Origin: Eunapius fragilis
Taxonomy: Eukaryota; Porifera; Demospongiae; Spongillida; Spongillidae
NCBI GenBank assembly: GCA_963681505.1
Contig: OY811980.1
Location: 8,003,118 to 8,067,117, forward strand
Direction of reading: 5' to 3'
DNA: 64,000 bases
Numbering within the stretch: position 1 is the first letter of the stretch; every line of letters begins with the position of its first letter. Shown piece by piece: positions 25,757 through 64,000 of the stretch. Made by a program: the position numbers and the translations under genes. The notes below the pieces were generated by a model. It was given only the letters and a program-made list of their open reading frames with translations. It had not been told where the DNA came from and did no database searches.

Positions 25757-28700
25757 TACCTCATCCAGACGACACAACATGACAATGGTCATACTCTTGA
25801 ACTCCCACACCATCCTCCAGAAGTCTTCCACTGTGTTCCCAAGAGGGGCTTGGGCAGCTATGTAGGCATTGCGTACCTTGTATCCCTATATGGAGTGATG
25901 GAGTGTTACCATGGAGATTTATACATCGAAGCATCACTGACATCTATACAGCTGGCATTGATGTACTCGGATCCTTGTACACCTGTAGGTCTGATACGTG
26001 CTCGATTGAGGTTATCTGAGGGATGGGAAGGTGAGAAGTGATGGTATGAGGAGTGATGGGGGGGGGGGGGGGTGATGAGTGAAGGGGTGAGGAGAGAGTG
26101 AGAAATGATGGAGGTGAAGAGGTGTGTGGTGATTGTTGTGCATAGTCATGATGGTGGAGGAGGTTAGAGCAGAGGTGATGGTGTAGGAGGAGGTTAGAAC
26201 AGAGGTGATGGTGTAGGAGGAGGTTAGAACAGAGGTGATGGTGTAGGAGGAGGTTAGAGCAGAGGTGATGGTGTAGGAGGAGGTAGACCAGAGGTGATGG
26301 TGTAGGAGGAGGTTAGAGCAGAGGTGATGGTGTAGGAGGAGGTTAGAGCAGAGGTGATGGTGTAGGAGGAGGTTAGAGCAGTGGTGATGGTGTAGGAGGA
26401 GGTTAGAGCAGAGGTGATGGTGTAGGAGGAGGTTAGAACAGAGGTGATGGTGTAGGAGGAGGTTAGAGCAGAGGTGATGGTGTAGGAGGAGGTTAGAGCA
26501 GAGGTGATGGTGTAGGAGGAGGTTAGAACAGAGGTGATGGTGGAGGAGGTTTGAACAGAGGTGATGGTGTAGGAGGAGGTTAGAGCAGAGGTGATGGTGT
26601 AGGAGGAGGTTAGAGCAGAGGTGATGGTGTAGGAGGAGGTTAGAGCAGAGGTGATGGTGTAGGAGGAGGTTAGAGCAGAGGTGATGGTGTAGGAGGAGGT
26701 TAGAGCAGAGGTGATGGTGTAGGAGGAGGTTAGAGCAGAGGTGATGGTGTAGGAGGAGGTTAGAACAGAGGTGATGGTGGAGGAGGTTAGAACAGAGGTG
26801 ATGGTGTAGGAGGAGGTTAGAGCAGAGGTGATGGTGTAGGAGGAGGTTAGAGCAGAGGTGATGGTGTAGGAGGAGGTTAGAACAGAGGTGATGGTGTAGG
26901 AGGAGGTTAGAGCAGAGGTGATGGTGTAGGAGGAGGTTAGAGCAGAGGCTGTACAGGGGGTTCACAACAACGAAAAGTAACACTCCAAACAACGAACAAT
27001 AAATGAGGATCATTGGGCCTTAAACTAGCTGTTAGAGGTCATATCACATCCCACCATCAATATATTTATAATATAGAGGGGCAAAGACGGTTTTGATGGT
27101 GGGATGTGATATGACCTCTAACAGCTAGTTTAAGGCCCAATGATCCTCATTTATTGTTCGTTGTTCAGAGTGTTACTTTTCCGTTGTTGTGAACCCCCCC
27201 TGTACTCACATGGTACGAGATCTTTGTAGCGATTCTTCTCAACATTGTACTGTTGCTTGGCCTCTGAAACATCTCTATCTGTTGGTTTATAGCTAACTTT
27301 CTCCAGGAGCTGGGGGAGGGGCATATTGCTAATGGTAACTACGGTGCTGGGATCCCCCTAGGGGGTCATGCAATCATCACCTCAAACTGCTCTACAAATC
27401 CTGAACGTGTTGTCCTATGAGGCAGTTCATTGATCCTGGTGCGCAGCTCAAAGCATTCCACGTGAGTGTCCCCACATGTGATCAATTCATTGAGGGCATC
27501 ATGGATGAACACATACTGGGACTGTGGAGGGAGGAGAACACATACTGTGGATAGTGGAGAGGTGTGGCACAATGTTGTCACCCCTAGCACCAGCCCACCA
27601 TCACCTACCACCAGCTCATAACATCAGCCCACCATCACCTAACACCATCACCTCACCTGCAGCCCACCATCGCCTAACACCAGCGCATAACATCAGACCA
27701 TCATCATCATACTACAAAGCACCAATATCTCCATGGACCATCACATGCTTACCAAGGTCTCTACAGACCATCACATGCTTACCAAGGTCTCTACAGACCA
27801 TCACATGCTTACCAAGGTCACTACAGACCATCACATGCTTACCAAGGTCTCTACAGACCATCACATGCTTACCAAGGTCTCTACAGACCATCACATGCTT
27901 ACCAAGGTCTCTACAGACCATCACATGCTTACCAAGGTCTCTACAGACCATCACATGCTTACCAAGGTCACTACAGACCATCACATGCTTACCAAGGTCA
28001 CTACAGACCATCACATGCTTACCAAGGTCACTACAGACCATCACATGCTTACCAAGGTCTCTACAGACCATCACATGCTTACCAAGGTCTCTACAGACCA
28101 TCACATGCTTACCAAGGTCTCTACAGACCATCACATGCTTACCAAGGTCTCTACAGACCATCACATGCTTACCAAGGTCTCTACAAACCATCACATGCTT
28201 ACCAAGGTCTCTACAGACCATCACATGCTTACCAAGGTCTCTACAGACCATCACATGCTTACCAAGGTCTCTACATACCATCACATGCGTACCAAGGTCT
28301 CTACAGACCATCACATGCTTACCAAGGTCTCTACATACCATCACATGCTTACCAAGGTCTCTACAGACCATCACATGCTTACCAAGGTCTCTACAGATCA
28401 TCACATGCTTACCAAGGTCTACAGAACATCACATACTTACCAAGGTCTCTAAAGTAAATGACCTCTGTCGTCTCATATCTCCAAAGCATTCACACACGTT
28501 CACGGTATCCTTTTCCTTCAGTTGCTCCAACATGCAGTCCAAGATGATGAACACACCAGACCTTCCCACACCTGAGCTACAGTGGACCACCATGGGGGGA
28601 CCATCTTGTCTGTGTTCACTGCGCACACGTTGGATGAAGCCAATGATGGAGGTGGCAGAGGATGGTACCCCAGTGTCCGGCCATCCCTCATACTGGAAGT

Positions 28701-31700
28701 GGGAAACCATCACCGCCACATTGCCAGCCTTGAAAGGGTTAAAGGTTGATTGTCATAATCTTGAGTAGACATGGCCATGATGTAAGTAGGTGTGGCCATA
28801 ACATAAGTAGGTGTGGTCACACTTACCATCTCAACTCTCATCCTTCTAGTCACATAGTCAGCAAAGGGTGTGACCTCGTCCAAGGTAACCTTCAGATCAG
28901 GGAATGGTTCCATGGTCCCTCCCACATTGTCTGGCCAGTACTGCTCACACTTACGCTACACATGATATGGGCGGACACATAAGACTGGGGAAGAGGGGAA
29001 GGGCGTGTCTTACTTTTCCTCCCTCATTGCACTGGGTCAACATGACTATGGTGTCCAAATTGTGCTTCAATACCATCCTCCAGAAGTCTCCTACAGTATT
29101 AGGCATGGGGCCCTGAGCCATGATGTATGCGTGTGTCTTCTTGTAGCCCTATAAGGGGAGGAGCCATGGTAGTCATGGCAACAAGATGGGTCATGGTTAC
29201 TCACATCGTAGTTGACATCAATGAAGGAGGCATTGATGTAGTCGGATCCATCTACACCCTCTATCGTAGGAAGGTGTACCCTGTTATAGTCATCTTGATG
29301 AGAGGGTTAGACGTGGGTGTTGGTCACTTTGGAATGCTTGAACACAGTAATGCTCACATGGGGATATGTTGTAGAACCTGTTCTTGCTCTTGTTATAGGG
29401 AAGAGCAGCTGCCTCTGTTGGGTGCTGGCATTCGGGGATGGACTGGAACTCTTTGTCAAACATCTTATCTCTGTCCTGATGCATGAAGGTAACGTGGTCT
29501 GCATATTCTTTGATGTGCACCGGACGACCAGAAGGTACTGGAGAGAGGAGAGGGGACAGATAAGGAGAGAAGGAGATAAGGAGAGAAGGGAGAGGAGGGA
29601 GGAGGAGGGAGAGGAGGAGAGACAGGAAGAGGAGGGAGGGGGAGGAAGAGGTGGAGAAGGAAAGGGAGTAGGAGGAGGGGAAGAGGAGGAGGGGGAGGGT
29701 AGGAGGAGGAGGGGGAGGAGGATGAGCAGGAGGGGGAGGAGGAGGAGGAGGAGGGGGAGGAGAATGAGGAGGGGGAGGAAGAGGAGGAGGAGGAGGGGGA
29801 GGAGAAGTAGGGGGAGAAGGAGGAGGGAGATGAGGGAGAGGAGGAGGGAGGGTAAGAAAGTTAGTCGAGACTTGGTCAAGATATCACTAGGCAGTACCAC
29901 ATACCTGCTGCTTGGTTAGACCTGCCTGTTGGTAGTGTTGATACTTGTTCCTCAGTGCTGGTAGATAGGTTCTGATTAATGCTCACTGTTTGTACAGGAG
30001 GTGGAGTCCCTTGCTCTCGAATTTCTGAGTATATTATCCCAGGATCATTTGACAGCTGGGCTTGTTTCTTGTTTCTGAATATGCGCACACATGGTGGTAA
30101 AGTGGGGCAGTTCACACATGATGGTAAGATGGAGTAGCTCACACATGATGGTAAGATGGAGTAGCTCACACATGATGGTAAGATGGGGTAGTTCACACAT
30201 GATGGTAAGATGGGGTAGTTCACACATGATGGTAAGATGGGGCAGCTCACACATGATGGTAAGATGGGTAGCTCACACATGATGGTAAGATGGGGTAGCT
30301 CACACATGATGGTAAGATGGGGTAGCTCACACATGATGGTAAGATGGGGTAGCTCACACATGATGGTAAGATGGGGTAGCTCACACATGATGGTAAGATG
30401 GGGCAGCTTACACATGATGGTAAGATGGGTAGCTCACACATGATGGTAAGATGGGGTAGATCACACATGATGGTAAGATGGGGCAGCTCACACATGATGG
30501 TAAGATGGGGTAGCTCACACATGATGGTAAGATGGGGCAGCTCACACATGATGGTAAGATGGGTAGCTCACACATGATGGTAAGATGGGGCAGCTCACAC
30601 ATGATGGTAAGATGGGGTAGCTCACACATGATGGTAAGATGGGGCAGCTCACACATGATGGTAAGATGGGTAGCTCACACATGATGGTAAGATGGGGTAG
30701 TTCACACATGATGGTAAGATGGGGCAGCTCACACATGATGGTAAGATGGGGTAGCTCACACATGATGGTAAGATGGGGCAGCTCACACATGATGGTAAGA
30801 TGGGGTAGTTCACACATGATGGTAAGATGGGGTAGCTCACACATGATGGTAAGATGGAGTAGCTCACACATGATGGTAAGATGGGGTAGCTCCCATTAGC
30901 TGACCTGTTGCATGTCTTGATCAGAAGAACACTGACAATGATGATGGCTACCATGACAACAATAGGTACCACCACCACTATGGGTATGATGCAGGTCATC
31001 ATGTCACATGATGCAGCACCAGCAGGTGTTGGTGATGATGAGGCAGTTGCCATGGTAGTCATTGGTGGTTGGGCTGGACAATAGATAAATATGGCCACCT
31101 TCATAACATGCTGATTATACATAGTCTCTTTGTTTACCTGTAGGCATAGCTGTGGTAGTGGTGGTTGCCCCAACACCAGCTGTGGTTCCAGCACTGACTG
31201 ATACCACATAGGTCACCATTGGGTCCAGCCCAGTGATGAGGTATGTGGTGATGTCAGCAGTCAGGTTAGCTGTCCCTCCTCCTGTGGTCCCTCTGGCTCT
31301 ACTGGTACTGGGTGTCCAGGTGACCAGGTAGTACCTCACAAACCCTCTGGCCTCAACTGGAGACAGAGGCTTCCACCTCAAAAGGATGGTGCTTACATTT
31401 GAGGTGACATTAACGTCCAGGGTACCACTGGGAGCTGAGGTGTTTGCATAGCAGAGATATCATTAATTCTAACACAACACACATACCCACTAATCACAAT
31501 ATGTAACCATGGTAACCACTAAGCACTAGCTACACATGTGATGTAACCATAGTAACCCACTAGCACTAGCTACACATGTGATTTAACCATGGTAAATTAA
31601 TGGAGCACAAAAGGTATGTTTTCTTAACCAGATGTTTGCACCAGACATAATGTTTACAAAAACATAATGATGATGTCACCAGCCATTATTATGTTCAGAA

Positions 31701-41739: not shown

Positions 41740-44700
41740 TCACATATCAATGTAATCTGCAACAGCTTCATGACAGAACACGTACTGCTCCTGCAAATGG
41801 TAAGTGGAAGATAAACTCCATATAGTTGGTAGATGTAAATTACTTACTGCTGTAGCAATAAAGTTCTGACGATGATTTCGTGAGGACTTGATGAACTGGA
41901 AGAAGTCCACCACATGTTCTGTCGTAAGTCTCTCCATCATGGCATGGATGGTGATGAAGGTACCAGTACGACCCATGCCATCACTGAAGGAGAAGGTTAT
42001 CAATTATACTAATGGTATAGTGATCTAAGTTAATAATTCAGGGGTGCAAGGGTTAAAACTACTCACTTGCACACAACAGTTGTGACTTTGTTTCCTGTCT
42101 GCATTTGAGCTTTGAGCACTGCCTTGTTCATCTTAATAACAGGACCAGTGGATGAAGGCCTGCCATTATCAGGCCATCCAGTGTAGTAAAACAGGTGTAT
42201 GGTGCTACTCTGAGTTGTAACCTAGAAGGAAGAGGTGTGGCTAAAGTGAAGGTGCCTTATGTCAAGGAACAGATACAAATGTTACCTCTTCTTTCAGTTC
42301 CAGTCTGTACACTGTAATACCATCCTTTGCTAAGCTGTCAGGATTTCCTGTCAGAGTGACTGCCATTTTCCCATACACCAGTGTCTCTCCTGGTCTCATA
42401 GGCCAGTACTGAACCACTCTGTCCTGTTAGTGAAGAGTAGCTGTCACATATGGACACAACCAACACACACAAATACAAGTACACACATTACCTCATCCAG
42501 ACGACACAACATGACAATGGTCATACTCTTGAACTCCCACACCATCCTCCAGAAGTCTTCCACTGTGTTCACAAGAGGGGCTTGGGCAGCTATGTAGGCA
42601 TTGGGTCTCCCATTGTATCCCTATATGGAATGATGGATGTTGTATACCATGGAGATATACACATTGAATCATCACTGACATCTATACAGCTGGCATTGAT
42701 GTACTCTGATTCTTGTCTGGTACGTGCTCGATTGAGATTATCTGAGGGATGGGAATGTGAGGAGTGATGGGGTGAGGAGAGATAAGGGTGAGGAGAGATG
42801 GAGGTAGGAGTGATGGAGTGAGGAGTGATGGGATGAGGAGTGATGGGGTGAGGAGTGATGGGGTGAGGAGAGATGGAGGTGAGAGTGATGGGGTGAGGAG
42901 TGATGGGGTGAGGAGTGATGGAGGTGAGGAGTGATTATGGTGAGAAGAGATGGAGGTGAGGAGTGATAGAGTAAGAAATTAGTGTGTGGTAATGGCAGCA
43001 TAGTTATGGACTTGGGTGAGGTTAGTTTTGGATTAGTGCAGAGATGGGACGGTTGTACTCACATGGTACGCGATCTTTGTAGCGATTCTTATTGTACTGT
43101 TGCTTGGCCTCAGAAACATCTCCATCTGTTGGTTTATAGCTAACTTTCTCCAGGAGCTGGGGGAGGGGCATATTGCCATTAACTACTAATGTGACTCCTA
43201 ATCTCAGTGGGGATATCCCTAGGGAATCCCCCTAGGGGATCATGCAATCATCACCTCAAACTGCTCTACAAATCCTGAATGTGTTGTCCCATGAGGTACT
43301 CTGTGCAGTTCATTGATCCTGGTGCGCAGCTCAGAGCCTTCCACGTGAGTGTCCCCACATGTGATCAATTCATTGAGGTCCTCAGGGGAAGGGCCATCAC
43401 CACACGTTGCTGTGTGATCAGTTCATTGAGGGCATTAAGGGGAGATGCAATGTAAATGAGGTAAGGAGGAGATGGGGGCACCACATACCTGCTGATTGGT
43501 TAGACCTGTCTGTTGGTAGTGTTGGTACTTCTACTTCATGTTCCTCAGTGCTGGTAGATAGGTTCTGATTAATGCTCACTGTCTGTACAGGAGGTGGTGT
43601 CCCTGTCTCGTCAATTACTGAATATTTAACCTGATCATTAGTTCCTGGCTGGGCTTGTTTGTTCTTCCTGAAGATGTGCACACATGAAGGATACAGCCAG
43701 CTGTAAGATGGGACAACTCACTAGCTAGATGGGACACTCACTAGCTAGATGGGACAGCTCACTAGCTAGATGGGACAGCTCACTAGCTAGATGGAACAGC
43801 TCACTAGCTAGATGGGACAGCTCACTAGCTAGATGGGACAGCTCACTAGCTAGATGGGACAGCTCACTAGCTAGATGGGACAGCTCACTAGCTAGATGGG
43901 ACAGCTCACTAGCTAGATGGGACAGCTCACTAGCTAGATGGGGCAGCTCACTAGCTAGATGGGGAGGCTCACAGGATAGATGGGACAGCTCACTAGCTAG
44001 ATGGAACAGCTCACTAGCTAGATGGGACAGCTCACTAGCTAGATGGGGAGGCTCACAGGATAGATGGGACAGCTCACTAGCTGGATGGAACAGCTCACTA
44101 GCTAGATGGAACAGCTCACTAGCTAGATGGGACAGCTCACTAGCTAGATGGGACAGCTCACTAGCTAGATGGGACAGCTCACTAGCTAGATGGGACAGCT
44201 CACTAGCTAGATGGGACAGCTCACTAGCTAGATGGGACAGCTCACTAGCTAGATGGGACAGCTCACTAGCTAGATGGGACAGCTCACTAGCTAGATGGGA
44301 CAACTCACTAGCTAGATGGGACAGCTCACTAGCTAGATGGGACAGCTCACTAGCTAGATGGGACAGCTCACTAGCTAGATGGGACAGCTCACTAGCTAGA
44401 TGGGACAGCTCACTAGCTAGATGGGACAGCTCACTAGCTAGATGGGACAGCTCACTAGCTAGATGGGACAGCTCACTAGCTAGATGGGACAGCTCACTAG
44501 CTAGATGGGACAACTCACTAGCTAGATGGGACAGCTCACTAGCTAGATGGGACAGCTCACTAGCTAGATGGGACAGCTCACAGGATAGATGGGACAGCTC
44601 ACTAGCTAGATGGGACAGCTCACTAGCTAGATGGGACAGCTCACTAGCTAGATGGGGCAGCTCACTAGCTAGATGGGACAGCTCACTAGCTAGATGGGAC

Positions 44701-47700
44701 AGCTCACTAGCTAGATGGGACAGCTCAATAGCTAGATGGGACAACTCACTAGCTAGATGGGACAACTCACTAGCTGGATGGGACAGCTCACTAGCTGGAT
44801 GGAACAGCTCACTAGCTAGATGGGACAGCTCACTAGCTAACCTGCTGCACGACTTGATCAGGAGAACACTGACAATGATGGCTACCATGACAACAACTGC
44901 TATCAATAACACCACCACTATGGGTATGATGCAGGTCATCATGTCACATGATGCAGCACCAGCAGGTGTTGGTGATGATGAGGCAGTTGCCATGGTAGTC
45001 ATTGGTGGTTGAGCTGGACAATAGATAAATATGGCCACCTTCATAACATGCTGATTATACATAGTCTCTTTGTTTACCTGTAGGCATAGCTGTCGTAGTG
45101 GTGGTTGCCCCAACACCAGCTGTGGTTCCAGCACTGACTGATACCACATAGGTCACCATTGGGTCCAGCCCAGTGATGAGGTATGTGGTGATGTCAGCAG
45201 TCAGGTTAGCTGTTCCTCCTCCTGTGGTCCCTCTGGCTCTACTGGTACTGGGTGTCCAGGTGACCAGGTAGTACCTCACAAACCCTCTGGCCTCAACTGG
45301 AGACAGAGGACTCCACCTCAGAAGGATGGTGCTTGCATTTATTGAGGTGACCACAACGTCCAGGGTGCCACTGGGAGCTGAAGAGTAAGAGCATGGGCAA
45401 AATGAGCCGTTTGATTTATATGTTTAATAGATATTTACCCAGCTCCTGAGAGAATAGAGTGAGAGTTTTGTTTTCACCTATCATGGTTCCAAATATTGCC
45501 CACACAGTTGCTATGTAGGGTACCCCTGCAGCTGAAGGAGATAGCAGATATATAGTCCATACCTTCCATCATACCAAACACATACCATAACTTTTTGTCA
45601 AGGTGTAGTTTTGCAATGTGGTAGTGCCCATCTCTATCAGGGTACCCTCTGAGTATGTTGTCATGGCAACAGTATAGTAGGAGATCTCATTACAGTTCAG
45701 TACAGGCACCTCCCACACTATCCTTAAAAGTTGTCCATATGACTGTAGACTGATTCCAGATACCACACCAGCTGTACAGAGGTGGGTCATGTGATTGTAT
45801 TAAAATACGACTGAGTATGCTTGAAACACACATTAAGGACCTTAGCTTGCTCCACAGAGGTACATAATAGTTATGACTTACTGTACAACATACATGGATG
45901 ACACATATGACTTACAAACTGAGAAGTTGACCACTCCAGTGGTAGCATAGGCCACTATGGGAACATCACCTGGAGCAGCCACTGATGCCTCACACCTGTA
46001 GACATAGCTACCTCCCACAGAGGACCCAGCTATGGTCAGCATGCTCACATTGGACCCTGCAGGGGTCACAGTCACATTTGTACCAGGAACCCCGGGATCT
46101 AGGGGAGTGAATGTTCCATTTTCCCCACTGATGCTTCTGGACCACCTGAAGACCAAAGAGGGAACAACTGACAGAGGTTTGGCAGCTGTACAGTTGAGCT
46201 GGAAGACTGCTTGCTGACAGGAAGTGCCACTGATAGAGGGACTAAGAGTTAGGGCTGAGGGAGAGAACCAGACATGGAGCATCCAGTACACATGGTATGG
46301 AGGACATACCAGTGACCACAACAGAGGCATTAGAAGGGGATGGTGTGTATTGGGTGAAGTATGGAGTGTACAGTGTCCCCACCAAGCACTGGTAGATAGT
46401 GTTATTGTCCTTTGAGCTCACGGTTGAGAAGCTGAGCATTGAGGTGTACACATATATGCCTCCTGAAATCTCAACAGATGAGGCATTGTTTGCACTTATG
46501 CGACCACTGTATGGTACCACACCATCTGGGCCTATCCACTGGAAGGACAGTGGCCTGTCTGTTAAAGATGGCAGACTGAAGGAGCAACTGTATTGAAGTA
46601 AGGCCCCCACAATGGCAGACTTGGGAATTACACCTGGAAATATGTTGCTCACTAAAGGAGAGAAAGAGACTGTTTCCAGGCAACTAGTCCCCAGTCCAAC
46701 TCCTCACCTGTGACATTGAAGGCATAGCTGGCAGTTCTACTAACTCCATTTGCACTGGCATTGCATACATACAGCCCTGCATATGACAGGACCACTGGAG
46801 ATGACAGTGTAAGTGGCCTTGATGTGGTACTGCCAGAGGTTGTTTGAGCTCCCACTGATCCAGCGGGGGGGTATGAGATCCATGTGACATTGACGGAGTT
46901 TGGTGTAGCCATGCAGGTCAAGACATATTGTGTTGTAGATCCTAACACAGCTGCAGATGGAGCTCCACTTGTGATGGATACTGTAATATTTGTCTGGGCA
47001 CTGGCTGTATGGAGAGATAGGGCATTACTAAATGACTCCTAGTTATATTGTGCATTGCGCTATCAGTATGCGGTAAGTTCTCTCTGCGTTCTAGGTTATA
47101 ATTAAGCCATTAATTGATGCGTCTATAATCTGTGTGCTAAGGTATTTAGTCCGTCAAGAAGGACTCCCAGAGGAATACTGCATGTTTCTGAAGATAACCA
47201 TAAAAATAGCAGGCATCAATAGTTTCACACGTAATTTTAAATACGTGGTCTGTAAAGCCTCTGGAAGTCTTATCTCCAGTCCGTATACCTAAGGTGCCTC
47301 CTAAGGCTCTGGTCTCTAAGAAAATGGTTTCTAGTCCAAAGTCTCTGCAGTTCTGGTCTTTAGTTCATACATACCGGTCCGGTTCCAATCAACTTTGTGC
47401 CCCCTGTAATAACTGCTCTGCATGCTACTGGTGTATTTTATCATGTGCCTTTTGGCTGCGTGTGCACAATGCGATCGTAGATCACACTAGACGAATATGA
47501 TTAAGCCTTTTACATGTATTAGGCCTTATCTTTACACGATACTAAAAACATTCAATTCACGCCTCTAGCACCTGGTCTTCTAATAGTTCTATAAACGGTC
47601 GGAACCAACAGCGCATAAGACAGACGACATCGAAGGTACCGTTTAAGCTGTATGTGTGTGTGTGTGGGGGGGGGGGGGGGGGGGTCCCTTATCAAGAACA

Positions 47701-49779: not shown

Positions 49780-50848
49780 CTAAATACCACTGGTATCACT
49801 CGGGCGGTGTGATTGGAAGTTTGCATACTGTCCCATCATATCAATATAATCCGCAACAGCTTCATGACAGAACACATATTGCTCCTGCAAATGGTAAGTG
49901 GAAGATAAACTCTATAATACAAAGTCTGAACTAAACTGAACTATTCTGATGTGCTAGAATTATAATAGAAAATCTTGAATTTATGTATATACATGTGTTC
50001 CTTTGATCTGTAGGATGCTTTTTATTGGATGTCATTTATTTGCCAAAAATATTAAAGTGTACACAGATACGCATTATTTACCGATGAAAGGAACAAAAAA
50101 GAATAGTTCAGTTTAGTTCAGACATTGTTAATTTATAGTTGGTACATGTAGATGTAAATTACTTACTGCTGTAGTAATAAAGTTCTGACGATGATTTCGT
50201 GAGGACTTGATGAACTGGAAGAAGTCCACCACATGTTCAGTCTTAAGTCTCTCCATCATGGCATGGATGGTGATGAAGGTACCAGTACGACCCATGCCAT
50301 CACTGAAGGAGAAGGTTATCAATTATACTAATGGTATAGTGATCTAAGTTGGCTTAATATTTCAGGGTTGCAAGGGTTAAAACTACTCACTTGCACACTA
50401 CAGTTGTGACTTTGTTTCCTGTCTGCATTTGAGCTTTGAGCACTGCCTTGTTCATCTTAATAACAGGACCAGTGGATGAGGGCCTGCCATTATCAGGCCA
50501 TCCAGTGTAGTAAAACAGGTGTACTGTGCTACTCTGAGTTGGAACCTAGAAGAAAGAGGTGTGGCTAAAGTGAAGGTGCCTTAGGGGAAGGTCCAGCAGA
50601 TTCAACCCTCCATACCATCACGTGACCACAGTGTTACCTTTCCCTTTCAGTCTCACCTTCTCTTCTTTCAGTTCCAGCCTGTACATCGTAATACCATCCT
50701 TTTCTGAGATGTCAGGATCTCTTGTCAGAGTGACTGCCATTTTCCCATACACCAGTGTCTCTCCTGGTCTCACAGGCCAGTACTGAACCACTCTGTCCTG
50801 TTAGTGAAGGAGCAGTCATACATGCACACAACCAACACACACACACAC

Positions 50849-50930
<82 letters not shown>

Positions 50931-53900
50931 TACCTCATCCAGACGACACAACATGACAATGGTCATACTCTTGAACTCCCACACCATCCTCCAGAAGTCT
51001 TCCACTGTGTTCCCAAGAGGGGCTTGGGCAGCTATGTAGGCATTGCGTACCTTGTATCCCTATATGGAATGATGGAGTGTTACCATGGACATAAATACAT
51101 ATTGAAGCATCACTGACATCTATACAGCTGGCATTGATGTACTCGGATCCTTGTACACCTGTAGGTCTGATACGTGCTCGATTGAGGTTGTCTGAGGGAT
51201 GGGAAGGTGAGAGGGATGGAGGTGAGGAGTGATGGGTGGGGGGGGGAATGATGAGTGAAGGGGTGAGGAGAGAGTGAGAAATGATGGAGGTGAAGAGGTG
51301 TGTGGTGATTGTTGTGATAATTAAAGCATAGTAATGATGGTTAGGAGGTTAGAGCAGAGATGATGGTGTAGGAGGAGGTTAGAGCAGAGGTGATGGTGTA
51401 GGAGGAGGTTAGAGCAGAGGTGATGGTGTAGGAGGAGGTTAGAGCAGAGGTTGTACTCACATGGTACGCGATCTTTGTAGCGATTCTTCTCAACATTGTA
51501 CTGTTGCTTGGCCTCTGAAACATCTCTATCTGTTGGTTTATGGCTAACTTTCTCCAGGAGCTGGGGGAGGAGCATATTGATAACAGTAACTACGGTGCTG
51601 GGATACCCCTAGTGAATCCCCCTAGGGGATTATGCAATCATCACCTCAAACTGCTCTACAAATCCTGAACGTGTAGTCCCATGAGGTACTCTGTGCAGTT
51701 CATTGATCCTGGTGCGCAGCTCAGAGCCTTCCACGTGAGTATCCCCACATGTGATCAGTTCATTGAGGGCATCATGGATGAACACATACTGGGACTGTGG
51801 AGGGAGGAGAACACATACTGTGGATAGTGGAGAGGTGTGGCACAATGTGGTCACCCCTAGCACCAGCCCACCACCACCTACCACCAGCTCATAACATCAG
51901 CCCACCACCACCTCACCAGCCCACCATCACCTCACCAGCCCACCATCACCTACCACCAGCTCATAACATCAGCCGACCATCACCTCAACAGCCCACCATC
52001 ACCTACCACCAGCCCATAACATCAGCCGACCATCACCTCACCATCCCACCACCACCTAACACCAGCTCATAACATCAGCCCACCATCACCTAACACCAGT
52101 TCATAACACCAGCCCATACTACAAAGCACCAATATCTCTATAAACCATCACATGCCTATCAAGGTCCCTACAGATCACCACATACTTACCAAGGTCTCTA
52201 CAGACCATCACATGCTTACCAAGGTCTCTACAGACCATCTTATGCTTACCGAGGTCTCTACATACCATCACATGCTTACCAAGGTCCCTACAGACCATCA
52301 TATGCTTACCAAGGTCTCTACAGACTATCACATGCTTACCAAGGTCTCTACAGACCATCACATGCTTACCAAGGTCTCTATAGACCATCACATGCTTACC
52401 AAGGTCTCTACAGACCATCACATGCTTACCAAGGTCTCTACAGACCATCATATGCTTACCAAGGTCTCTACAGACCATCACATGCTTACCAAGGTCTCTA
52501 CATACCATCACATGCTAACCAAGGTCTCTACAGACCATCACATGCTTACCAAGGTATCTACAGACCACCACATGCTTACCAAGGTCTCTACAGACCATCA
52601 CATGCTTACCAAGGTCTCTACAGACCATCACATGCTTACCAAGGTCTCTACATACCATCACATGCTAACCAAGGTATCTACAGACCACCACATGCTTACC
52701 AAGGTCTCTACAGACCATCATATGCTTACCAAGGTCTCTACAGACCATCACATGCTTACCAAGGTCTCTACATACCATCACATGCTAACCAAGGTCTCTA
52801 CAGACCATCACATGCTTACCAAGGTCTCCACAGACCATCACATGCTTACTAAGGTCTCTACAGACCATCACATGCTTACCAAGGTCTCTACATACCATCA
52901 CATGCTAACCAAGGTCTCTACAGACCATCACATGCTTACCAAGGTCTCTACATACCATCACATGCTTACCAAGGTCTCTACAGACCATCACATGCTTACC
53001 AAGGTCTCTACAAACCATCACATGCTTACCAAGGTCTCCACAGACCATCACATGCTTACCAAGGTCTCCACAGACCATCACATGCTTACTAAGGTCTCTA
53101 CAGACCATCACATGCTTACCAAGGTCTCTACAGACCATCATATGCTTACCAAGGTCTCTACAGACCATCACATGCTTACCAAGGTCTCTACAGACCATCA
53201 CATGCTTACCAAGGTCTCTACAGACCATCACATGCTTACCAAGGTCTCCACAGATCATCACATGCTTACTAAGGTCTCTACAGACCATCACATGCTTACC
53301 AAGGTCTCTACATACCATCACATGCTAACCAAGGTCTCTACAGACCATCACATGCTTACCAAGGTCTCTACATACCATCACATGCTTACCAAGGTCTCTA
53401 CAGACCATCACATGCTTACCAAGGTCTCTACATATCATCACATGCTTACCAAGGTCTCTACAGACCATCATATGCTTACCAAGGTCTCTACAGACCATCA
53501 CATGCTTACCAAGGTCTCTACAGACCATCACATGCTTACCAAGGTCTCTACAGACCATCACATGCTTACCAAGGTCTCTACAGACCATCACATGCTTACC
53601 AAGGTCTCTACAGACCATCATATGCTTACCAAGGTCTCTACAGACCATCATATGCTTACCAAGGTCTCCACAGACCATCACATGCTTACCAAGGTCTCTA
53701 TAGACCATCACATGCTTACCAAGGTCTCTACAGACCATCACATGCTTACCAAGGTCTCTACAGACCATCACATGCTTACCAAGGTCTCTACAGACCATCA
53801 TATGCTTACCAAGGTCTCTACAGACCATCACATGCTTACCAAGGTCTCTACAGACCATCACATGCTTACCAAGGTCTCTACAGACCATCATATGCTTACC

Positions 53901-56644
53901 AAGGTCTCTACAGACCATCATATGCTTACCAAGGTCTCCACAGACCATCACATGCTTACCAAGGTCTCTATAGACCATCACATGCTTACCAAGGTCTCTA
54001 CATACCATCACATGCTTACCAAGGTCTCTACAGTAAATGACCTCTGTCGTCTCATATCTCCAAAGCATTCACACACGTTCACGGAATCCTTCTCCTTCAG
54101 TCGCTCCAACATGCAGTCCAAGATGATGAACACACCAGACCTTCCCACACCTGAGCTACAGTGGACCACCATGGGGGGACCATCTTGTCTGTGTTCACTG
54201 CGCACACGACGGATGAAGCCAATGATGGAGGTGGCAGAGGACGGTACCCCAGTGTCCGGCCATCCCTCATACTGGAAGTGGGAAACCATCACCGCCGCAA
54301 TGCCAGTCTTGAAAGGGTTAAAGGTGCAATTGTTATAAGAGTAGACATGGCCATGATGTAAGTAGGTGTGGCCATAACATAAATAGGTGTGGTCACACTT
54401 ACCATCTCAACTCTCATCCTTCTAGTCACATAGTCAGCATAGGGTGTGGCCTCGTCCAAGGTAACCTTCAGATTAGGTAATGGTTCCGTGGTCCCTCCCA
54501 CATTGTCTGGCCAGTACTGCTCACACTTACGCTACACATCATATGGGCGGACACATAAGACTGGGGAAGAGGGGGAGGGGGCGTGCCTTACCTTCCCTCC
54601 CTCATTGCACTGGGTCAACATGACTATGGTGTCCAATTTGTGCTCCAATACCATCCTCCAGAAGTCTCCTACAGTATTAGGCATGGGGCCCTGAGCCATG
54701 ATGTATGCGTGTGTCTTCTTGTAGCCCTATAAGGGGAGGAGCCATGGTAGTCATGGCAACAAGAAGGGTCATGGTTACTCACATCGCAGTTGACATCAAT
54801 GAAGGAGGCATTGATGTAGTCTGATCCATCTACACCCTCTATCATACGAAGGTGTACCCTGTTGTAGTCATCTTGATGAGAGGGTTAGACGTGGGTGTTG
54901 GTCACTTTGGAATGCTTGAACACAGTAATGCTCACATGGGGATATGTTGTGGAACCTGTTCTTGCTCTTGTTACAGGGAAGAGCAGCTGTCTCTGTGGGG
55001 TGCTGGCATTCGGGGATGGACTGGAACTCTTTGTCAAACATCTTATCTCTGTCCTGATGCATCAAGGTAACGTGGTCTGCAAAGTCTTTGATGTGCACCG
55101 GACCACCAGAAGGTACTAAAGAGAGGAGAGGGGACAGATAAGGAGATAAGGAGAGAAGGGGGAGAAGAGGAGGAAGAGGAGGAGAGGAGGGGGAGGAGGT
55201 GGGAGAGGAGGGGGAGAAGAAGAGAGTAGGAGGGGGAGGAGGTGGGAGAGGAGGAGGAGGAGGAGGGGGAGGAGGGGAGAAGAGGAGGTGGGAGAGGAGG
55301 GGGAGGAGGAGAGGGAGGGGAAGGGAGAAGAGGAGGAGGAGAGAGGAAGAGGAAGGGAGAGGGAGGAGGAGAGGAAGAGGAGGAGAGGGAGGAGGAGAGG
55401 AAAAGGAGGAGGGGGAGGAAGATTAGGGGAGGAGGAGGAGGGAGAGGAGGGAGAGGAGGAGGGAGAGGAGGAGGGAGGGTATGAAAGTTAGTCAAGACTT
55501 GGTCAAGATATCACTAGGCAGTACCATATACCTGCTGCTTGGTTAGACCTGCCTGTTGGTAGTGTTGATACTTTTGCTTTCTGTTCCTCAGTGCTGGTAG
55601 ATAGGTTCTGATTAATGCTCACTGTTTGTACAGGAGGTGGAGTTCCTGGCTCTCGAATTTCTGAGTATATTATCCCAGGATCATTTGACAGCTGGGCTTG
55701 TTTCTTGTTTCTGAATATGCGCACACATGATGGTAAGATGGAGTAGCTCACACATGATGGTAAAATGGGGTAGTTCACACATGATGGTAAGATGGGGTAG
55801 TTCACACATGATGGTAAGATGGGGTAGCTCACACATGATGGTAAGATGGGGCAGCTCACACATGATGGTAAGATGGGGTAGTTCACACATGATGGTAAGA
55901 TGGTAGCTCACACATGATGGTAAAATGGGGTAGTTCACACATGATGGTAAGATGGGGTAGTTCACACATGATGGTAAGATGGAGTAGCTCACACATGATG
56001 GTAAGATGGAGTAGCTCACACATGATGGTAAGATGGGGTAGTTCACACATGATGGTAAGATGGGGTAGTTCACACATGATGGTAAGATGGGGTAGTTCAC
56101 ACATGATGGTAAGATGGGGCAGCTCACACATGATGGTAAGATGGGGTAGCTCACACATGATGGTAAGATGGAGTAGTTCACACATGATGGTAAGATGGAG
56201 TAGCTCACACATGGTACGGTGGCTCGGTAGGTCGCGGGTACGAGCAACGGTCTGAGAGCAAAATTGCGTACGGTCCGAGAGCAAAATTGCGTACGGTCCA
56301 AGAGCAAAATTGCGTACGGTCCAAGAGCAAAATTGCGTACGGTCCGAGAGCAAAATTGCGTACGGTCCGAGAGCAAAATTGCGTACGGTCCGAGAGCAAA
56401 AACGCGCAGGAGCTGAGAGCAAAAATGCGTACGAGCTGAGAGCAGTTGTTTACATTGGATTTAGGCATTACGCCATTTGTTTTTTTTCTTTAAAAAATGG
56501 CTTCCAGATGCATCGCTAGCGTCATCCGTTTGTAACTTTTCCAAGGGCTGTTAACATCCTGAGGCAGCGCAAGGCAGCTATTCTTGATCCCTGATTGCGC
56601 ACCGGTGTGTAACTGTGTGTGGGCATGAGTGTCTTGTGTGTACG

Positions 56645-56685
<41 letters not shown>

Positions 56686-56880
56686 GTGTGTGTGTGCGGG
56701 CGTGTGTATGTGTGTGTGTGTGTATGTGTGTGTGTGTTTGTGTGCGATTCCTTTTACATCGTGATGTGTATCTCTATTTGTCATGCACTGGTACAGTTAA
56801 GAGCAGTCTTGGGAGATTTACCAAAAGCACGGACAGCTGTGGTCTTATCTTATTTACTGTGCACTAAGTCGGCTGACTGA

Positions 56881-56971
<91 letters not shown>

Positions 56972-58028
56972 TTTGTCTGCATCATGCATGTGTATGTTCT
57001 AGGCGTTAAATTTACTTTTAAATCATGCATACTTTCATTTATTGTTTTGTCCCACTATTAATTGGGCCAAGGATCTTGTAACACTCAAGATTGAGACAAT
57101 CAGCTTCAACCGCCCAGAACTCTCTAAGTTGCTGACATGTTGTCCCTCTCTCTCTCTCATTGCGTTGTTGCAGCTTTGATTGCCTCCCTGTCATTCTCAG
57201 GCTTGGGCAGTGCTGTTAACAGTAGGTGACGGCAGTTTTCAACACCAAGGTCTCCCTCTCCAATGCCATGTTTGCTCTGGACTCTCCCATTCCCCAGAGG
57301 GTCTTGTCAGGAATGATAATGATATAAGCTCAACATTTCCACATCTTGTTGGAGTCTCCAACAGAGCTTACCTTCTGTCCGTAGCAGTTAGCCCCTCATG
57401 CTTCCTCTTGGCTACCGGTGGTCCCTTCCCCTTCTGGTGACCAAAAGGGTTGAGAGCAGTATTGGGGTAGAATGGGCACATTAACTGATCGGAAGTATCC
57501 AACTCGAGCCACCACCAATGGCCATCTGGTACTCATTGGAATCCAGGTACAAACCCATATCAGGGGAAGTGACCACCGGTAGCCAAGAGGAAGCATGAGG
57601 AGCTAACTGCTACTGACAGAAGGTAAGCTCTGTTGGCTGGGGAGGAAGACTCCAACAAGATGTGGAAATGTTAAGCTTATATAATTATCATTCCTGACAA
57701 GACCCTCTGGGAAATGGGAGGGTCCAGAGCAGAGATGGCATTGGAGAGGGAGACCTTGGTGTTGAACACTGCCGTCACCTACTGTTAACAGCACTACCCA
57801 AGCCTGAGAATGACAGGGAGGCAATCAAAGCTGCAACAACGCAATGAGAGAGAGAGGGACAACATGTCAGCAACTTAGAGAGTTCTGGGTTGAAGCTGAT
57901 TATCTCAATATTGAGTGTTACAAGATCCTCGGCCCAATCAATAGTGGGACAAAACATTATGCATGATTTAAATGTAAAATTTCCCTTCTTTAACGCCTAG
58001 AACATACACATGCATGATGCAAACAAAA

Positions 58029-58072
<44 letters not shown>

Positions 58073-58296
58073 TTCAGACAGCCGACTTATTGCAAAGTAA
58101 ATAAGACGAGATCACAGCTTTCTATATGCGTAATAAGCTCTGAAGATAAATTGAAAACTAAATTTAGAAAACATAACGTAAATCTCCCAAGACTGCTCTT
58201 AACTGTACCAGTGCATGACAAATAGAGATACACATCACGATGTAAAAGGAATCGCACACAAACACACACACACATACACACACACATACACACGCC

Positions 58297-58336
<40 letters not shown>

Positions 58337-61300
58337 CGTACACACAAGACACTCATGCCCACACACAGTTACACACCGGTGCGCAATCAGGGATCAAGAA
58401 TAGCTGCCTTGCGCTGCCTCAGGATGTTAACAGCCCTTGGAAAAGTTACAAACGGATGACGCTAGCTAGCGATGCATCTGGAAGCCATTTTTTAAAGAAA
58501 AAAAACAAATGGCGTAATGCCTAAATCCAATGTAAACAACTGCTCTCAGCTCGTACGCATTTTTGCTCTCAGCTCCTGCGCGTTTTTGCTCTCGGACCAT
58601 ACGCAATTTTGCTCTCGGACCGTACGCAATTTTGCTCTCGGACCGTACGCAATTTTGCTCTTGGACCGTACGCAATTTTGCTCTCGGACCGTACGCAATT
58701 TTGCTCTCGGACCGTACGCAATTTTGCTCTTGGACCGTACGCAATTTTGCTCTCGGACCGTACGCAATTTTGCTCTTGGACCGTACGCAATTTTGCTCTC
58801 GGACCGTACGCAATTTTGCTCTCAGACCGTTGCTCGTACTCATTTTTGCTCTCAAACCGCTGCTCGTACCCGCGACCTACCGGGCCACCGTACACATGAT
58901 GGTAAGATGGGGTAGTTCACACATGACGGTAAGATGGGGTAGCTCACACATGATGGTAAGATGGGGTAGCTCACACATGACGGTAAGATGGAGCAGCTCA
59001 CACATGATGGTAAGATGGGGTAGTTCACACATGATGGTAAGATGGGGTAGCTCACACATGATGGTAAGATGGGGTAGCTCACACATGATGGTAAGATGGA
59101 GTAGCTCACACATGATGGTAAGATGGAGTAGCTCACACATGATGGTAAGATGGGGTAGTTCACACATGACGGTAAGATGGAGTAGCTCACACATGATGGT
59201 AAGATGGGGTAGCTCACACATGATGGTAAGATGGGGTAGCTCACACATGATGGTAAGATGGGGTAGCTCACACATGATGGTAAGATGGGGTAGCTCACAC
59301 ATGATGGTAAGATGGGGTAGTTCACACATGATGGTAAGATGGGGCAGCTCACACATGATGGTAAGATGGGGTAGCTCACACATGATGGTAAGATGGGGTA
59401 GCTCCCATTAGCTGACCTGTTGCATGTCTTGATCAGGAGAACACTGACAATGATGATGGCTGCCATGACAACAACAGGTACCACCACCACTATGGGTATG
59501 ATGCAGGTCATCATGTCACATGATGCAGCAACAGCAGGTGTTGGTGCTGATGAGGCAGTTGCCATGGTAGTCATTGGTGGTTGGGCTGGCCAATAGATAA
59601 ATATGGCCACCTTCATAACATGCTGATTATACATAGTCTCTTTGTTTACCTGTAGGCATAGCAGTGGTAGTGGTGTTTGCCCCAACACCAGCTGTGGTTC
59701 CAGCACTGACTGATACCACATAGGTCACCATTGGGTCCAGCCCAGTGATGAGGTACGTGGTGATGTCAGCAGTCAGGTTAGCTGTCCCTCCTCCTGTGGT
59801 CCCTCTGGCTCTACTGGTACTGGGTGTCCAGGTGACCAGGTAGTACCTCACAAACCCTCTGGCCTCAACTGGAGACAGAGGCTTCCACCTCAGAAGGATG
59901 GCGCTTACATTTAAGGTGACATTAACATCCAGGGTACCACTGGGAGCTGATGTGTTTGCATAGCAGAGATATCATTAATTAATGCAAACACAACACACAA
60001 ACCCACTAGCACTAACTAATCACATGATGTAACCATGGTAACTCACTAGCACTAGCTACACATATGATGTAACCATAGTAACCCACTAGCACTAGCTACA
60101 CATGTGATGTAACCATGGTAACCCACTAGCACTAGCTACATGATGTAACCATGGTAACCCACTAGCACTAGCTACATGATGTAACCATGGTAACCCACTA
60201 CCACTAGCTACACATGTGATGTAACCATGGTAAACTAATGGAGCACAAAAGGTATGTTTTTTTAACCAGATGTTTGCACCAGACATCATAATGTTTACAA
60301 AAAAAAAGATGTCACCAGCCACCATTATAACAGGGAAACAGGATGTCCCTGCACTATTCTCAGAGTTACTGAAGTTCCTTGGCAGCTGTTGTTCAAAACA
60401 GGAATACTGTTGTGTACGATCATAATCCAAAAGCCACACCCACTGTTGGGTAACCACGGTGACAGTGTCCATATAAGGTTACCAATGTGTCAAACTTTAA
60501 CCCTTAAAGCACTATCTAGTGTGTCATCACTATAACGTGCCAGAGGTCATAGTTTTGGTTCTCCTCCCCTACTTGTACTTACCTAGCTCCTGTGAGTAGA
60601 CCACCACTTGCACTGTGGTGTTCTGTCCTCCTCCAAACACAGCCTGTACTGAGACATTGTATGGTACTCCAGCCTCTGTGACAGGTGGGGATGGGGAGGA
60701 GGAGTGGATAATTGGATTGCCTAGGGCACAACACTTACCATAGCTTTTTGTCAAGGTGTAGTTTTGCAATGTGGTAGTGCCCATCTCTATCAGGTTACCC
60801 TCCGAATATGTTGTCATGGCAACAGCATAGTAGGAAACAGCATTACAGGTCACTACAGGAGCCTCCCACACTATCCTTAGAAGTTGTGGCTGGAGAGTGA
60901 GTCCAGATACCACACCAGCTGTACAGAGGTGGGTCATGTGATTGTATTAAAATACAACTGAGTACGCTTGAGACACACATGAAGGACCTTAGCTTGCTCC
61001 ACAGAGGTACATACTAAATACATGGATGACCCATTATGCACCCATAGGACTTACAAACTGAGAAGTTAGTGGTAGCATAGGCCACTATGGGAACATCATC
61101 TGGAACAGCCACTGATGCCTCACACCTGTAGACATAGCTACCTCCCACAGAGGACCCAGCTATGGTCAGCATGCTCACATTGGACCCTGCAGGGGTCACA
61201 GTCACATTTGTGCCAGGAACCCCAGGATCCAAGGGAGTGAATGTTCCATTTTCCCCACTGATGCTTCTGGACCACCTGAAGACCAAAGAGGGAACAACTG

Positions 61301-62234
61301 ACAGAGGTTTGGCAGCTGTACAGTTGAGCTGGAAGACTGCTTGCTGACAGGAAGTGCCACTGATAGAGGGACTAAGAGTTAGGGCTGAGGGAGAGAACCA
61401 GACATGGAGCATCCAGTACACATGGTATGGAGGACATACCAGTGACCACAACAGAGGCATTAGAAGGGGATGGTGTGTATTGGGTGAAGTATGGAGTGTA
61501 CAGTGTCCCCACCAAGCACTGGTAGATAGTGTTATTGTCCTTTGAGCTCACGGTTGAGAAGGTGAGCGTTGAGGTGTACACATATATGCCTCCTGCAGTA
61601 ACACCAGATGAGGCATTGTTTGCACTTATGCGACCACTGTAAGGTACCACACCATCTGGGCCTATCCACTGGAAGGACAGTGGCCTGTCTGTTAAAGATG
61701 ACATACTGAAGGAGCAACTGTATTCAAGTAAGGCCCCCACAATAGCAGACTTGGGAATTACACCAGGAAATATGTTGCTCACTAAAGGAGAGAAAGAGAC
61801 TGTTTCCAGGCAACTAGTCCCCAGTCCAACCCCTCACCTGTGACGTTGAAGGCATAGCTGGCAGTTCTGCTAACTCCATTTGCACTGGCATTGCATACGT
61901 ACAGCCCTGCATATGACAGGACCACTGGAGATGGCAGTATAAGTGACCTTGATGTGGTACTGCCAGAGGTTGTTTGAGCTCCCACTGATCCAGCAGGGTA
62001 TGAGATCCACATGACATTGGTGGAGTTTGATGTAGCCATGCAGGTCAAGACATATTGTGTTGTAGATCCTAACACAGCTGCAGATGGAGCTCCACTTGTG
62101 ATGGATACTGTAATGGACTGGGCACTGGCTGTATGAAAAACGTTCATATTTATTTAAATCGCTCCCCCAACGATACCTGCTCAGCGTACGATTGAACCCG
62201 CTAGGTATATGTATGTACGTTTATGCATGTGATT

Positions 62235-62315
<81 letters not shown>

Positions 62316-62445
62316 TGTGCGTGCGTGTGTGTTGTGCGTGTGCGTGTGTGCGTGTGTGGGCGCGCATGCACGGAGGAAAGTATCAGGAACACTTACCGCC
62401 AGTTAAGATGGCTACGAGGAACACGATATGAAAGGCGCCGCTCAT
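49780..62445 (-). CDS. G6: receptor-type protein tyrosine phosphatase with two PTP domains
   Basis: Twenty-two exons: 62397-62445, 61838-62128, 61440-61781, 61055-61384, 60739-60918, 60583-60675, 59650-59946, 59417-59585, 55532-55710, 54936-55115, 54783-54871, 54592-54726, 54403-54531, 54020-54307, 51645-51794, 51461-51560, 51118-51191, 50934-51059, 50657-50797, 50391-50545, 50167-50302, 49780-49884. Sum 3738 bases, 1245 codons plus stop. The signal peptide [16 protein letters not shown] is unrelated to those of G4 and G5. Three Ig, two FN3, a membrane span and ITIM-like IIYSEI precede D1 ([21 protein letters not shown]) and D2 (KNRY, WPDNGRP, VCNDGMGRTG). Ig2 is the G3/G5 type but the FN3 exons are the G4 type, so it is a mosaic. 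The membrane/juxtamembrane intron is 3.7 kb, two minisatellite blocks around a foldback transposon; the intron after the D1 signature exon is 2.2 kb of tandem splice donors. Confidence 0.92.
50833..50929. repeat. (CA)n microsatellite in G6 intron
   Basis: About 48 CA units with one CG interruption, directly beside the donor of the [12 protein letters not shown] exon. Confidence 0.92.
51345..51450. repeat. 30-bp repeat in G6 D2 intron, short array
   Basis: Four units of the G4 repeat (GGTGTAGGAGGAGGTTAGAG), ending a few bases from the donor of the KNRY exon. This intron gives the empty site for the G4 MITE. Confidence 0.88.
51855..52110. repeat. CACCATCACCTACCACCAGC repeat in G6 intron
   Basis: Imperfect units of 30 to 45 bases next to the splice-donor array; a shorter version is in G4. 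Confidence 0.75.
52137..54019. repeat. Tandem splice-donor minisatellite of G6 (30-bp unit, about 63 copies)
   Basis: The array starts at the donor of the D1 signature exon (54019) and runs for 1.9 kb. Nearly every unit keeps, on the gene strand, ACCTTGGTAAGCATGTGATG: the last codons of the exon followed by a consensus GTAAGC donor. Variation includes GTTAGC at some units (plus-strand GCTAACC) and T/C changes in the ATGTGATGG part. The plus strand is open for about 700 codons here only because the unit is ten codons long. Confidence 0.94.
55120..55480. repeat. GGA-rich purine tract in G6 intron
   Basis: About 360 bases of nearly pure purine on the plus strand. On the transcript it is a pyrimidine tract ending just upstream of the acceptor of the first D1 exon (55115). 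Mirror-symmetric purine tracts of this length can form triplex DNA. Confidence 0.9.
55722..56213. repeat. 27-bp minisatellite, left block, G6
   Basis: About 18 units of the CACACATGATGGTAAGATGG repeat. The array continues after the transposon at 58894. Confidence 0.93.
56214..58893. mobile_element. 2.68-kb foldback transposon in the G6 minisatellite
   Basis: Ends read GTACGGTGGCTCGGTAGGTC and its near-perfect complement. The arms are about 1.22 kb (56214-57436) and 1.33 kb (57559-58893), with a unique centre of only about 120 bases. Each arm has 21-bp subterminal tandem repeats (GAGCAAAATTGCGTACGGTCC; about 7 left, 10 right) and GT/CA microsatellites of unequal length. A 5-bp duplication, ACATG, flanks it (56209-56213 and 58894-58898). 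No transposase frame is seen, so it is non-autonomous. Long inverted arms with internal tandem repeats recall foldback-type DNA transposons; the exact family is unassigned. Confidence 0.85.
56881..56970. repeat. (GT)n in the left arm of the foldback element
   Basis: About 44 GT units; the matching place in the right arm (58031-58068) has only about 19 CA units. This accounts for part of the arm difference. Confidence 0.9.
58894..59400. repeat. 27-bp minisatellite, right block, G6
   Basis: About 18 further units of the same repeat as at 55722-56213, ending next to the donor of the membrane exon. Some units carry CACACATGACGGTAAG, a variant not obvious in the left block. Confidence 0.93.
59985..60240. 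repeat. ATGTAACCATGGTAACCCAC repeat in G6 FN3 intron
   Basis: Six to seven units of about 42 bases (TAGCACTAGCTACACATGTG followed by ATGTAACCATGGTAAC) lie in the intron between the two FN3 domains. G4 has about three units at 31495-31590. Confidence 0.8.
62239..62308. repeat. (GT)n microsatellite in G6 first intron
   Basis: About 35 GT units between the signal-peptide exon and the first Ig exon. Confidence 0.92.
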
Positions 62446-64000
62446 GTTTGTTTCATCGCTGTGATAGTCAAGTTATTAATAATTAATGTACATGTGATCC
62501 GCGACGCGACGCGACAGTACCCACGGGAAAAATTATGGCGTATGATTATTTTATCGACTCGCCTGTGCGCCTCGTTCCCAGGCCATATATGTTCTGTTGG
62601 CACCAGCGCTGCTGAGATGGTAAGGATGATGTGTTGTCAGTTGTGCCAACCTTTTCTCATATCTTATTTTGAAGGCAGTTACAGTTCAAAGCTTGCTCAC
62701 ATGGGACCCGTGCACCTCTATGTACATTTCTTGGTGACAGGCTAATAATAAGGTCAGTGATCACAAATATAATCAGTGCATTACCTGGAAAGGATCAGGT
62801 AAGGCCTAAGCCAGATATGGCCATTAGGTAAGGCCTAAGTAAGGATATGGCCATCAGGTAAGGCCGGATTACGTCATACTATTTTCGACCCCCCCCCCTT
62901 GTCACACATTATCCCATACTTAGGCCTTCCCTGATGGCCTTACTTTAATAGGTCTTACCTGATGGCCTTACTTAGGAGGCCTTCCCTGATGGCCTTACCT
63001 GATGGCCATACCTGATGGCCTTACCTGATGGCCTTACCTGATGGCCTTACCTGATGGCCTTACCTGATGGCCTTACCTGATGGCCTTACCTGATGGCCTT
63101 ACCTGATGGCCTTACCTGATGGCCTTACCTGATGGCCTTACCTGATGGCCATACCTGATGGCCTTACCTGATGGCCTTACCTGATGGCCATACCTGATTG
63201 CCTTACCTGATGGCCATATGGGGCAGTTCATAAATTACGTCACGCTGAAGAGTGTGATGAAGCATGACATCACTTACGCATGACATCACTTACGCATGAC
63301 ATCACTTACGCATGACAAATATTGGCTCCTGATTCAGTGATCTTAGACCATAATTACAGTGGCACGTGTTTGTAGGAGGTCATGTTATTTCATTGCTGTA
63401 AATCATAGTGGTCTGATTGTTCTTCGATTTTACTACAACCAGACATCTTTTGAAAGAAGTTCTCATTAATTAGGATGGCATGGAGCATTTAGATACCAGT
63501 TGTTGGTTCAACCCAGGGCTTAATAGTCTGCTTGTCTATCACGATGTAAAGGTTTTTGCAGAAGGTGACTTGTCCCCCATTGCACCCCAAGTGGCTATCA
63601 CCCACCATGCACATGTCATTTTATCTTAGTGGTTGTCCTCCACATGTGTACCAGAGGCCAGGACACAATCTTCTCTGGGTCATTCCATTCAGTCACCCTG
63701 GACCTGGTCACTGATGTGATCCAGCTCTCTCCACTTGCACAAAGCCTTGATCAAGTTATTAACTACACATGTATATATAGCGCTTTTATCAATGAACCCG
63801 AGAGGCTATGACCATGTTCTAATGTTTATTTATGGCTAGTCTTTGCGGCCCCTTGGGCTTTACCCTTGACTGCACAACCATTTACATGATCAGAAAAATC
63901 CAAATAATGCACACTACTATCATCCTCACAAAGGGCTTCTCTGTTGTGGCTCTAACACCTACATGCAAACATAGTATGGCTGTTGTTTACTGTAGCTAGA
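62446..64000. other. Right flank, upstream of G6
   Basis: No gene is recognised. It should contain the G6 promoter. It holds a 13-bp minisatellite (62936-63215), a single Harbinger-like end (63220-63248) and three copies of a 16-base CATGACATCACTTACG repeat (63262-63312). The plus strand from about 63530 to 63810 has long open stretches but no splice pattern or motif that I recognise. Confidence 0.55.
62936..63215. repeat. 13-bp minisatellite TTACCTGATGGCC
   Basis: About 20 tandem units. Immediately to the left (62795-62870) the same motif occurs in inverted orientation (GGTAAGGCCTAAG and ATGGCCATCAGGTAAGGC), enclosing a C-run. The minisatellite therefore seems to have grown from one arm of a small inverted-repeat element. 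Confidence 0.85.

Follow-up and report, generated by a model that had tools for sequence, protein, structure and literature searches.

A junction-spanning minisatellite repeats the 5′ splice site at exon 14 of a putative receptor tyrosine phosphatase gene

In the window (the whole 64,000-nucleotide stretch of DNA analysed, from a 219-Mb genome in 24 contigs), exon 14 of a predicted receptor protein tyrosine phosphatase (PTP) gene, G6, runs into a long array of tandem copies of its own 5′ splice site. The array of donor copies is real. TRF reports a repeat of period 30 with 63.5 copies and 94% matches at 52128..54033, and by counting units one by one from plus-strand position 54028 downwards we found 63 full 30-bp units lying head to tail on the minus strand, 62 of which have a donor GT after a copy of the exon end. 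An initial annotation of this DNA had placed about 63 tandem donor units here, and was right in both coordinates and count. We favor, at a probability of about 0.72, the reading that this is a mostly neutral, junction-spanning intronic minisatellite whose decoy donors are overcome by position. With more than 50 identical donors after one exon, a single transcript offers a natural competition experiment for 5′ splice site choice, which bears on the long-standing question of how the spliceosome settles on a single 5′ splice site among candidates that sequence does not tell apart.

G6 (49783..62445, minus strand) was divided by eye into 22 exons, which together form one open frame. All 21 introns have a GT donor and an AG acceptor, and the single frame runs to a stop in exon 22. 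The predicted protein consists, in order, of a signal peptide, Ig, FN3, a transmembrane segment (TM, placed by reading) and the phosphatase domains D1 and D2; Pfam finds Y_phosphatase in two stretches (1.1e-146), fn3 (2.8e-10) and ig (0.00014). Tandem PTP domains behind a TM, together with Ig and FN3 repeats, make the predicted G6 product a receptor PTP. Judged by its sequence, D1 looks like an active phosphatase domain, and its closest solved structure is human PTPRF/LAR (6kr4, E 9.9e-135); D2 has VCNDGMGRTG. Exon 14 (54020..54307, minus strand) carries the PTP D1 signature and ends in RSFTVETL. The array starts inside it, so that the last 14 bases of the exon and the authentic donor are themselves part of the repeat. 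This first donor, TTG/GTAAGC (three last exon and six first intron bases; the slash marks the junction), lies at 54014..54022 on the minus strand, with its GT at plus-strand position 54019, where it had been annotated. Intron 14 (51795..54019, minus strand) is 2225 bp long and holds, between the array and exon 15, a second, degenerate tandem repeat (51861..52116, minus strand); exon 15 (51645..51794, minus strand) follows at a phase 0 junction.

The array unit reads GAGACCTTG/GTAAGCATGTGATGGTCTGTA on the minus strand. Its donor 9-mer is TTGGTAAGC in 52 of the 63 units, TTGGTTAGC in five and TTAGTAAGC in three, while TCGGTAAGC, TTGGTAAGT and TTGATAGGC were found once each. The nine bases of the first donor are thus identical in 52 units (the first and 51 others), and to these the initial description of "equal" donors applies; nine others are weaker, one is stronger (GTAAGT, near the far end) and one has no GT. 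GTAAGC stands at the donor position in 56/63 units. Calling the donors "consensus" was generous, since 101 of 128 donors of the gene family equal or beat the score of TTG/GTAAGC. The only unit without a GT is the one most distant from the exon, and a 64th unit is degenerate. Divergence is likewise greatest in the six exon-distal units, with a mean of 2.33 differences versus 0.62–0.86 elsewhere. A 20-bp core, allowing up to 3 mismatches, matched 87 times in the window (63 in this array and 24 in a paralogous one), and on average 0.00 times in 100 dinucleotide shuffles of the window. Assemblers are prone to errors in long arrays of near-identical units, and similar blocks of units recur within this array, so a real but short array might have been inflated or reshuffled by the assembler. 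We regard such an effect as very improbable, given that two paralogs share the array with three unit types in common, and that some variants occur in single units and the far end is degenerate.

Only one of the 62 donor choices in G6, the first, leaves the frame open; the other 61 end in ETL-VSM-stop, in agreement with the initial annotation. In the paralog G3, one of 23 choices is open. The protein formed across the first junction, VETL/SQYVFIH, aligns to human LAR D1 without a gap. In the 264-kb gene cluster, GT stands at the identical codon in all 11 copies of exon 14 (G6 and G3 included), where one copy is aligned to residue 95 of 96 and a 12th match was excluded, with 24% identity and overlap with a D2 exon. 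The LAR match, the shared GT and the open frame support the first donor, whose position is ancestral, as the productive one. Constraint on the exons downstream backs its use weakly: between G3 and G6, exons 15–22 have a dN/dS of 0.35 and no stop in the G3 hits, a value based on few changes, 7 of them synonymous and 9 nonsynonymous (from rounded values, the one-sided binomial p is 0.041), in a pair of tandem paralogs between which sequence exchange is possible. The same pair gives higher values in other exons (0.73 in exons 9–14 and 0.56 in exons 2–8). A purposeful D1-only protein, as had been suggested for the internal donors, is not borne out, because the frame stops before the QYVFIH stretch and upstream of eight exons, so that mRNA decay would be the ordinary expectation.

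Neither donor sequence nor predicted structure favors the first donor, so that its selection should rest on position. The consensus unit contains a further donor-like GT, CATGTGATG, that scores 6.29 versus 6.86 for the donor itself. Predicted accessibility with a 200-nt folding window was 0.005 for the first donor and 0.041 for the median internal donor (0.009 versus 0.040 at 120, and 0.004 versus 0.019 at 400), and the first donor of G3 is likewise below the median. The array unit is self-complementary, and the predicted fold of a 201-nt stretch is somewhat better than that of its shuffles (z −2.15; 7 of 200 were as good). The idea that RNA folding hides the internal donors was unsupported, the predicted accessibility of the first donor being lower than that of the median internal donor, and proximal use is for the same reason assumed here from position alone. 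We infer that the first donor would be picked through its place beside the real exon, by exon definition, by enhancers upstream or by the order in which the sites are transcribed. Such a choice is not guaranteed: for a different gene, PMC5585400 describes how SR protein binding can favor the intron-proximal of two competing donors, a preference that would disfavor the first donor here.

Were the internal donors to compete, a fixed share of transcripts might end in the VSM-stop and be degraded or yield a truncated receptor, and array length would set gene output, differing between individuals and paralogs. We think this unlikely. The 51 internal donors that match the first exactly, the higher predicted accessibility of the median internal donor, the nonproductive outcome of every internal choice examined, the 63 versus 24 units in the two paralogs and the use of two downstream repeats as donors in IFI6, as reported in PMC4526556, all speak for competition, but internal donor cores lack clear conservation, the sequence has no sign of tuning, and the downstream exons are open and, on few changes, seemingly constrained. 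A heritable version, in which array length sets the fraction of pre-mRNA lost to the VSM-stop and receptor dose varies, tunable through unequal exchange with the first exon-donor unit never damaged, seems to us slightly more doubtful still; if it were true, individuals and paralogs would differ in receptor dose. Splicing that depends on repeat number, as the initial annotation had proposed, is possible.

How the internal donors have evolved can be read from their cores (positions −2 to +6). The 63 G6 units have 12 core differences versus 15.2 expected, and 6 distinct variants versus 4.5; leaving out the last unit, which has no GT, the remaining 62 have 10 versus 13.9 and 4 versus 4.0. In G3, we counted 1 difference versus 3.5 expected and 1 distinct variant versus 2.4 in 23 of the 24 30-bp units (one degenerate unit was dropped and the 28-bp first unit excluded), counts too small to tell neutrality from selection. 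GT is lost in 1 of 63 units in G6 and in none of the 23 compared in G3. Internal donor cores were not clearly more conserved than the remainder of the unit in either set (63 and 23 units), and the G6 counts are compatible with neutrality. Weak selection on the internal donors is conceivable, because GT losses are few and core differences lie slightly below expectation. The lack of clear core conservation and the difference in copy number between the paralogs, 63 versus 24, argue against a selected role for the array.

The 62 donor sites with GT within 1.9 kb, and the second donor-like GT in the consensus unit, might alternatively form a platform for U1 snRNP, the intron's many U1 sites retaining the pre-mRNA, blocking premature polyadenylation or recruiting the spliceosome. 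We give this very little credence, as the donors are mediocre within their own family and eight distant paralogs manage without the array. Titration of U1, an effect put forward in the initial annotation, is implausible on general grounds: a few dozen sites on one pre-mRNA would face an abundant snRNP, and a single gene could hardly titrate U1 overall.

The same array is present in G3 (27736..28451, minus strand; 23.9 copies by TRF), at the same junction and with the same degenerate end; its first unit, a variant, is 28 bp long and has the donor GTAAGT. Exon 14 of G3 (28441..28728, minus strand) has its final 11 bases inside the array and encodes protein 92% identical to that of G6. In the best-aligned pieces, the two genes are 90.5% identical in the intron after the array and 95.6% in the stretch before it. 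Among 62 G6 units we distinguish 17 types and among 24 G3 units 8, of which 3 occur in both genes. The G6 intron between exons 14 and 15 is 2225 bp long and that of G3 919 bp; in the eight distant paralogs, which lack the 30-bp array, it is short (roughly 60–350 bp). G1 has another array, with a 36-bp unit (window 4446-4676), nine bases past the same donor. It lacks the 30-bp unit, yet its exon 14 already ends GAGACCTTG/GTA, which suggests that the repeat was seeded by the exon. The simplest history would place the origin of the array after the split from G1 and before that between G3 and G6. Intron gain by tandem duplication was considered and rejected: GT is at the same codon in all 11 exon 14 copies, 9 of which are without the 30-bp array. 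A DNA search of the genome found the 30-bp repeat at three loci at least (the G6 array, the G3 array and a 4.4-unit piece on contig C6), a lower bound in that 40 of 57 candidates were scored. The stray piece on C6 (L019 4542-4673) lies in a 9-kb locus that, outside the repeat, has blastn matches to the cluster only near its end (8889-8995), of a dispersed-repeat-like kind.

The neutral minisatellite that we favor would have arisen when a segment made up of ~13 bases from the end of exon 14 and ~17 from the start of the intron was tandemly duplicated in the ancestor of G3 and G6, after the G1 split. The copies would have expanded into a minisatellite, and gene duplication would have brought the array into both genes, giving 24 and 63 units. 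Because each unit copies both the exon end and the donor, gain or loss of whole units would leave the junction with both of them intact. In this way a minisatellite could expand from the border of an exon while the gene stays whole. Productive mRNA would come from the donor next to the exon, the internal copies would be decoys, mostly of equal strength and always adding VSM-stop, and the array itself would be mostly neutral. For donor competition, the two paralogs supply two array lengths.

In the 264-kb cluster, only the exon 14 arrays of G6 (14 bp) and G3 (11 bp) overlap an exon by at least 6 bp, in a scan that covered 188 of 209 exon hits (those with E up to 1e-4) and 95 of 109 arrays (those of at least 2.3 copies). 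Other arrays lie ~2–14 bp after copies of exons 8, 11, 12, 14, 16 and 21, on the donor side, and ~12–17 bp before copies of exons 9, 13, 15 and 17, on the acceptor side, counting from the whole aligned codon closest to the array. Closeness is therefore not specific to donors, and we rejected the notion that minisatellites in this genome are generally born at 5′ splice sites, since arrays adjoin acceptors as well. An excess of donor-like motifs in the minisatellite units is a weak lead. At a score of 6.5 the motif occurs in 22 of 67 units versus 11 of 67 reversed units, and 100 letter shuffles, which do not preserve dinucleotides, gave a mean of 9.35 (sd 2.75, largest 17); at scores of 8 and 9 it occurs in 8 and 5 units, no more than shuffling can yield (up to 11 and 6). 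These units represent 67 of the 109 arrays, those with at least 3 copies and a period of 9–80 after low-complexity units were dropped, and they include paralogous arrays. One example is CAGGTAAGG, in a 13-bp × 22 array (window 62923-63215 and 63262-63317).

Minisatellites are plentiful on the contig around the window (C10), with 109 arrays of period at least 9 in 264 kb once overlapping rows were removed; the same contig has many phosphatase hits across several megabases. Within the window, the exon 8–9 intron has a 27-bp array (55722-56213 and 58892-59404) that is interrupted by an inverted-repeat element of ~2.6 kb (56238-58839; longest arms 274 nt, 99% complementary); 23-bp repeats lie close to both of the element's ends. 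In two paralogs this intron is nearly all minisatellite (43706-44839, 21-bp × 54; 30086-30892, 27-bp × 30), starting ~4–14 bp past the last whole exon 8 codon. Three of the six gene copies in the window (8763-13206, 17497-21698 and 41743-47002) have no hits to exons 10–14, which make up all of D1 as far as the signature exon. In two of them exon 9 is followed by a shortened exon 15; the third is also without exon 8–9 hits. All three look like D1-less receptors keeping only D2, and the copy at 17497-21698 has one stop inside its exon 15–22 hits.

The LAR-type receptors PTPRF and PTPRS share with G6 the Ig, FN3, TM and tandem phosphatase domains. In contrast to them, G6 belongs to a large local cluster, in which three of the six window copies are without the D1 exons 10–14. 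Tandem duplications over a splice border have been described in intron gain (PMC4974935); they likewise cross an intron-exon boundary and copy splicing signals, but there a new intron arises, whereas intron 14 of G6 is ancestral and has only grown. Among the open-licence papers that our searches listed, we recognised no other splice-donor array from titles and abstract openings. The closest known case is the human IFI6 (6-16, G1P3) minisatellite, which has repeated splice donors (Turri, Cuin and Porter 1995, Nucleic Acids Res 23:1854). Like it, the G6 array overlaps an exon-intron boundary, reaching 14 bp into exon 14, and its units carry a donor-like site (GT in 62/63, the nine bases of the first donor in 52/63). 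The IFI6 minisatellite reportedly sits at the end of an exon and has 12-bp repeat units that are in frame. Unlike IFI6, G6 has 30-bp units in 63 copies, belongs to another gene family in another genome, and has internal donors each of which would add a stop. Two downstream repeat units of IFI6 are reported in PMC4526556 to be used as donors, and PMC3618361 cites the minisatellite for interference with splicing. The G6 array is a real, long junction-spanning minisatellite of the IFI6 kind, one for which a precedent is known.
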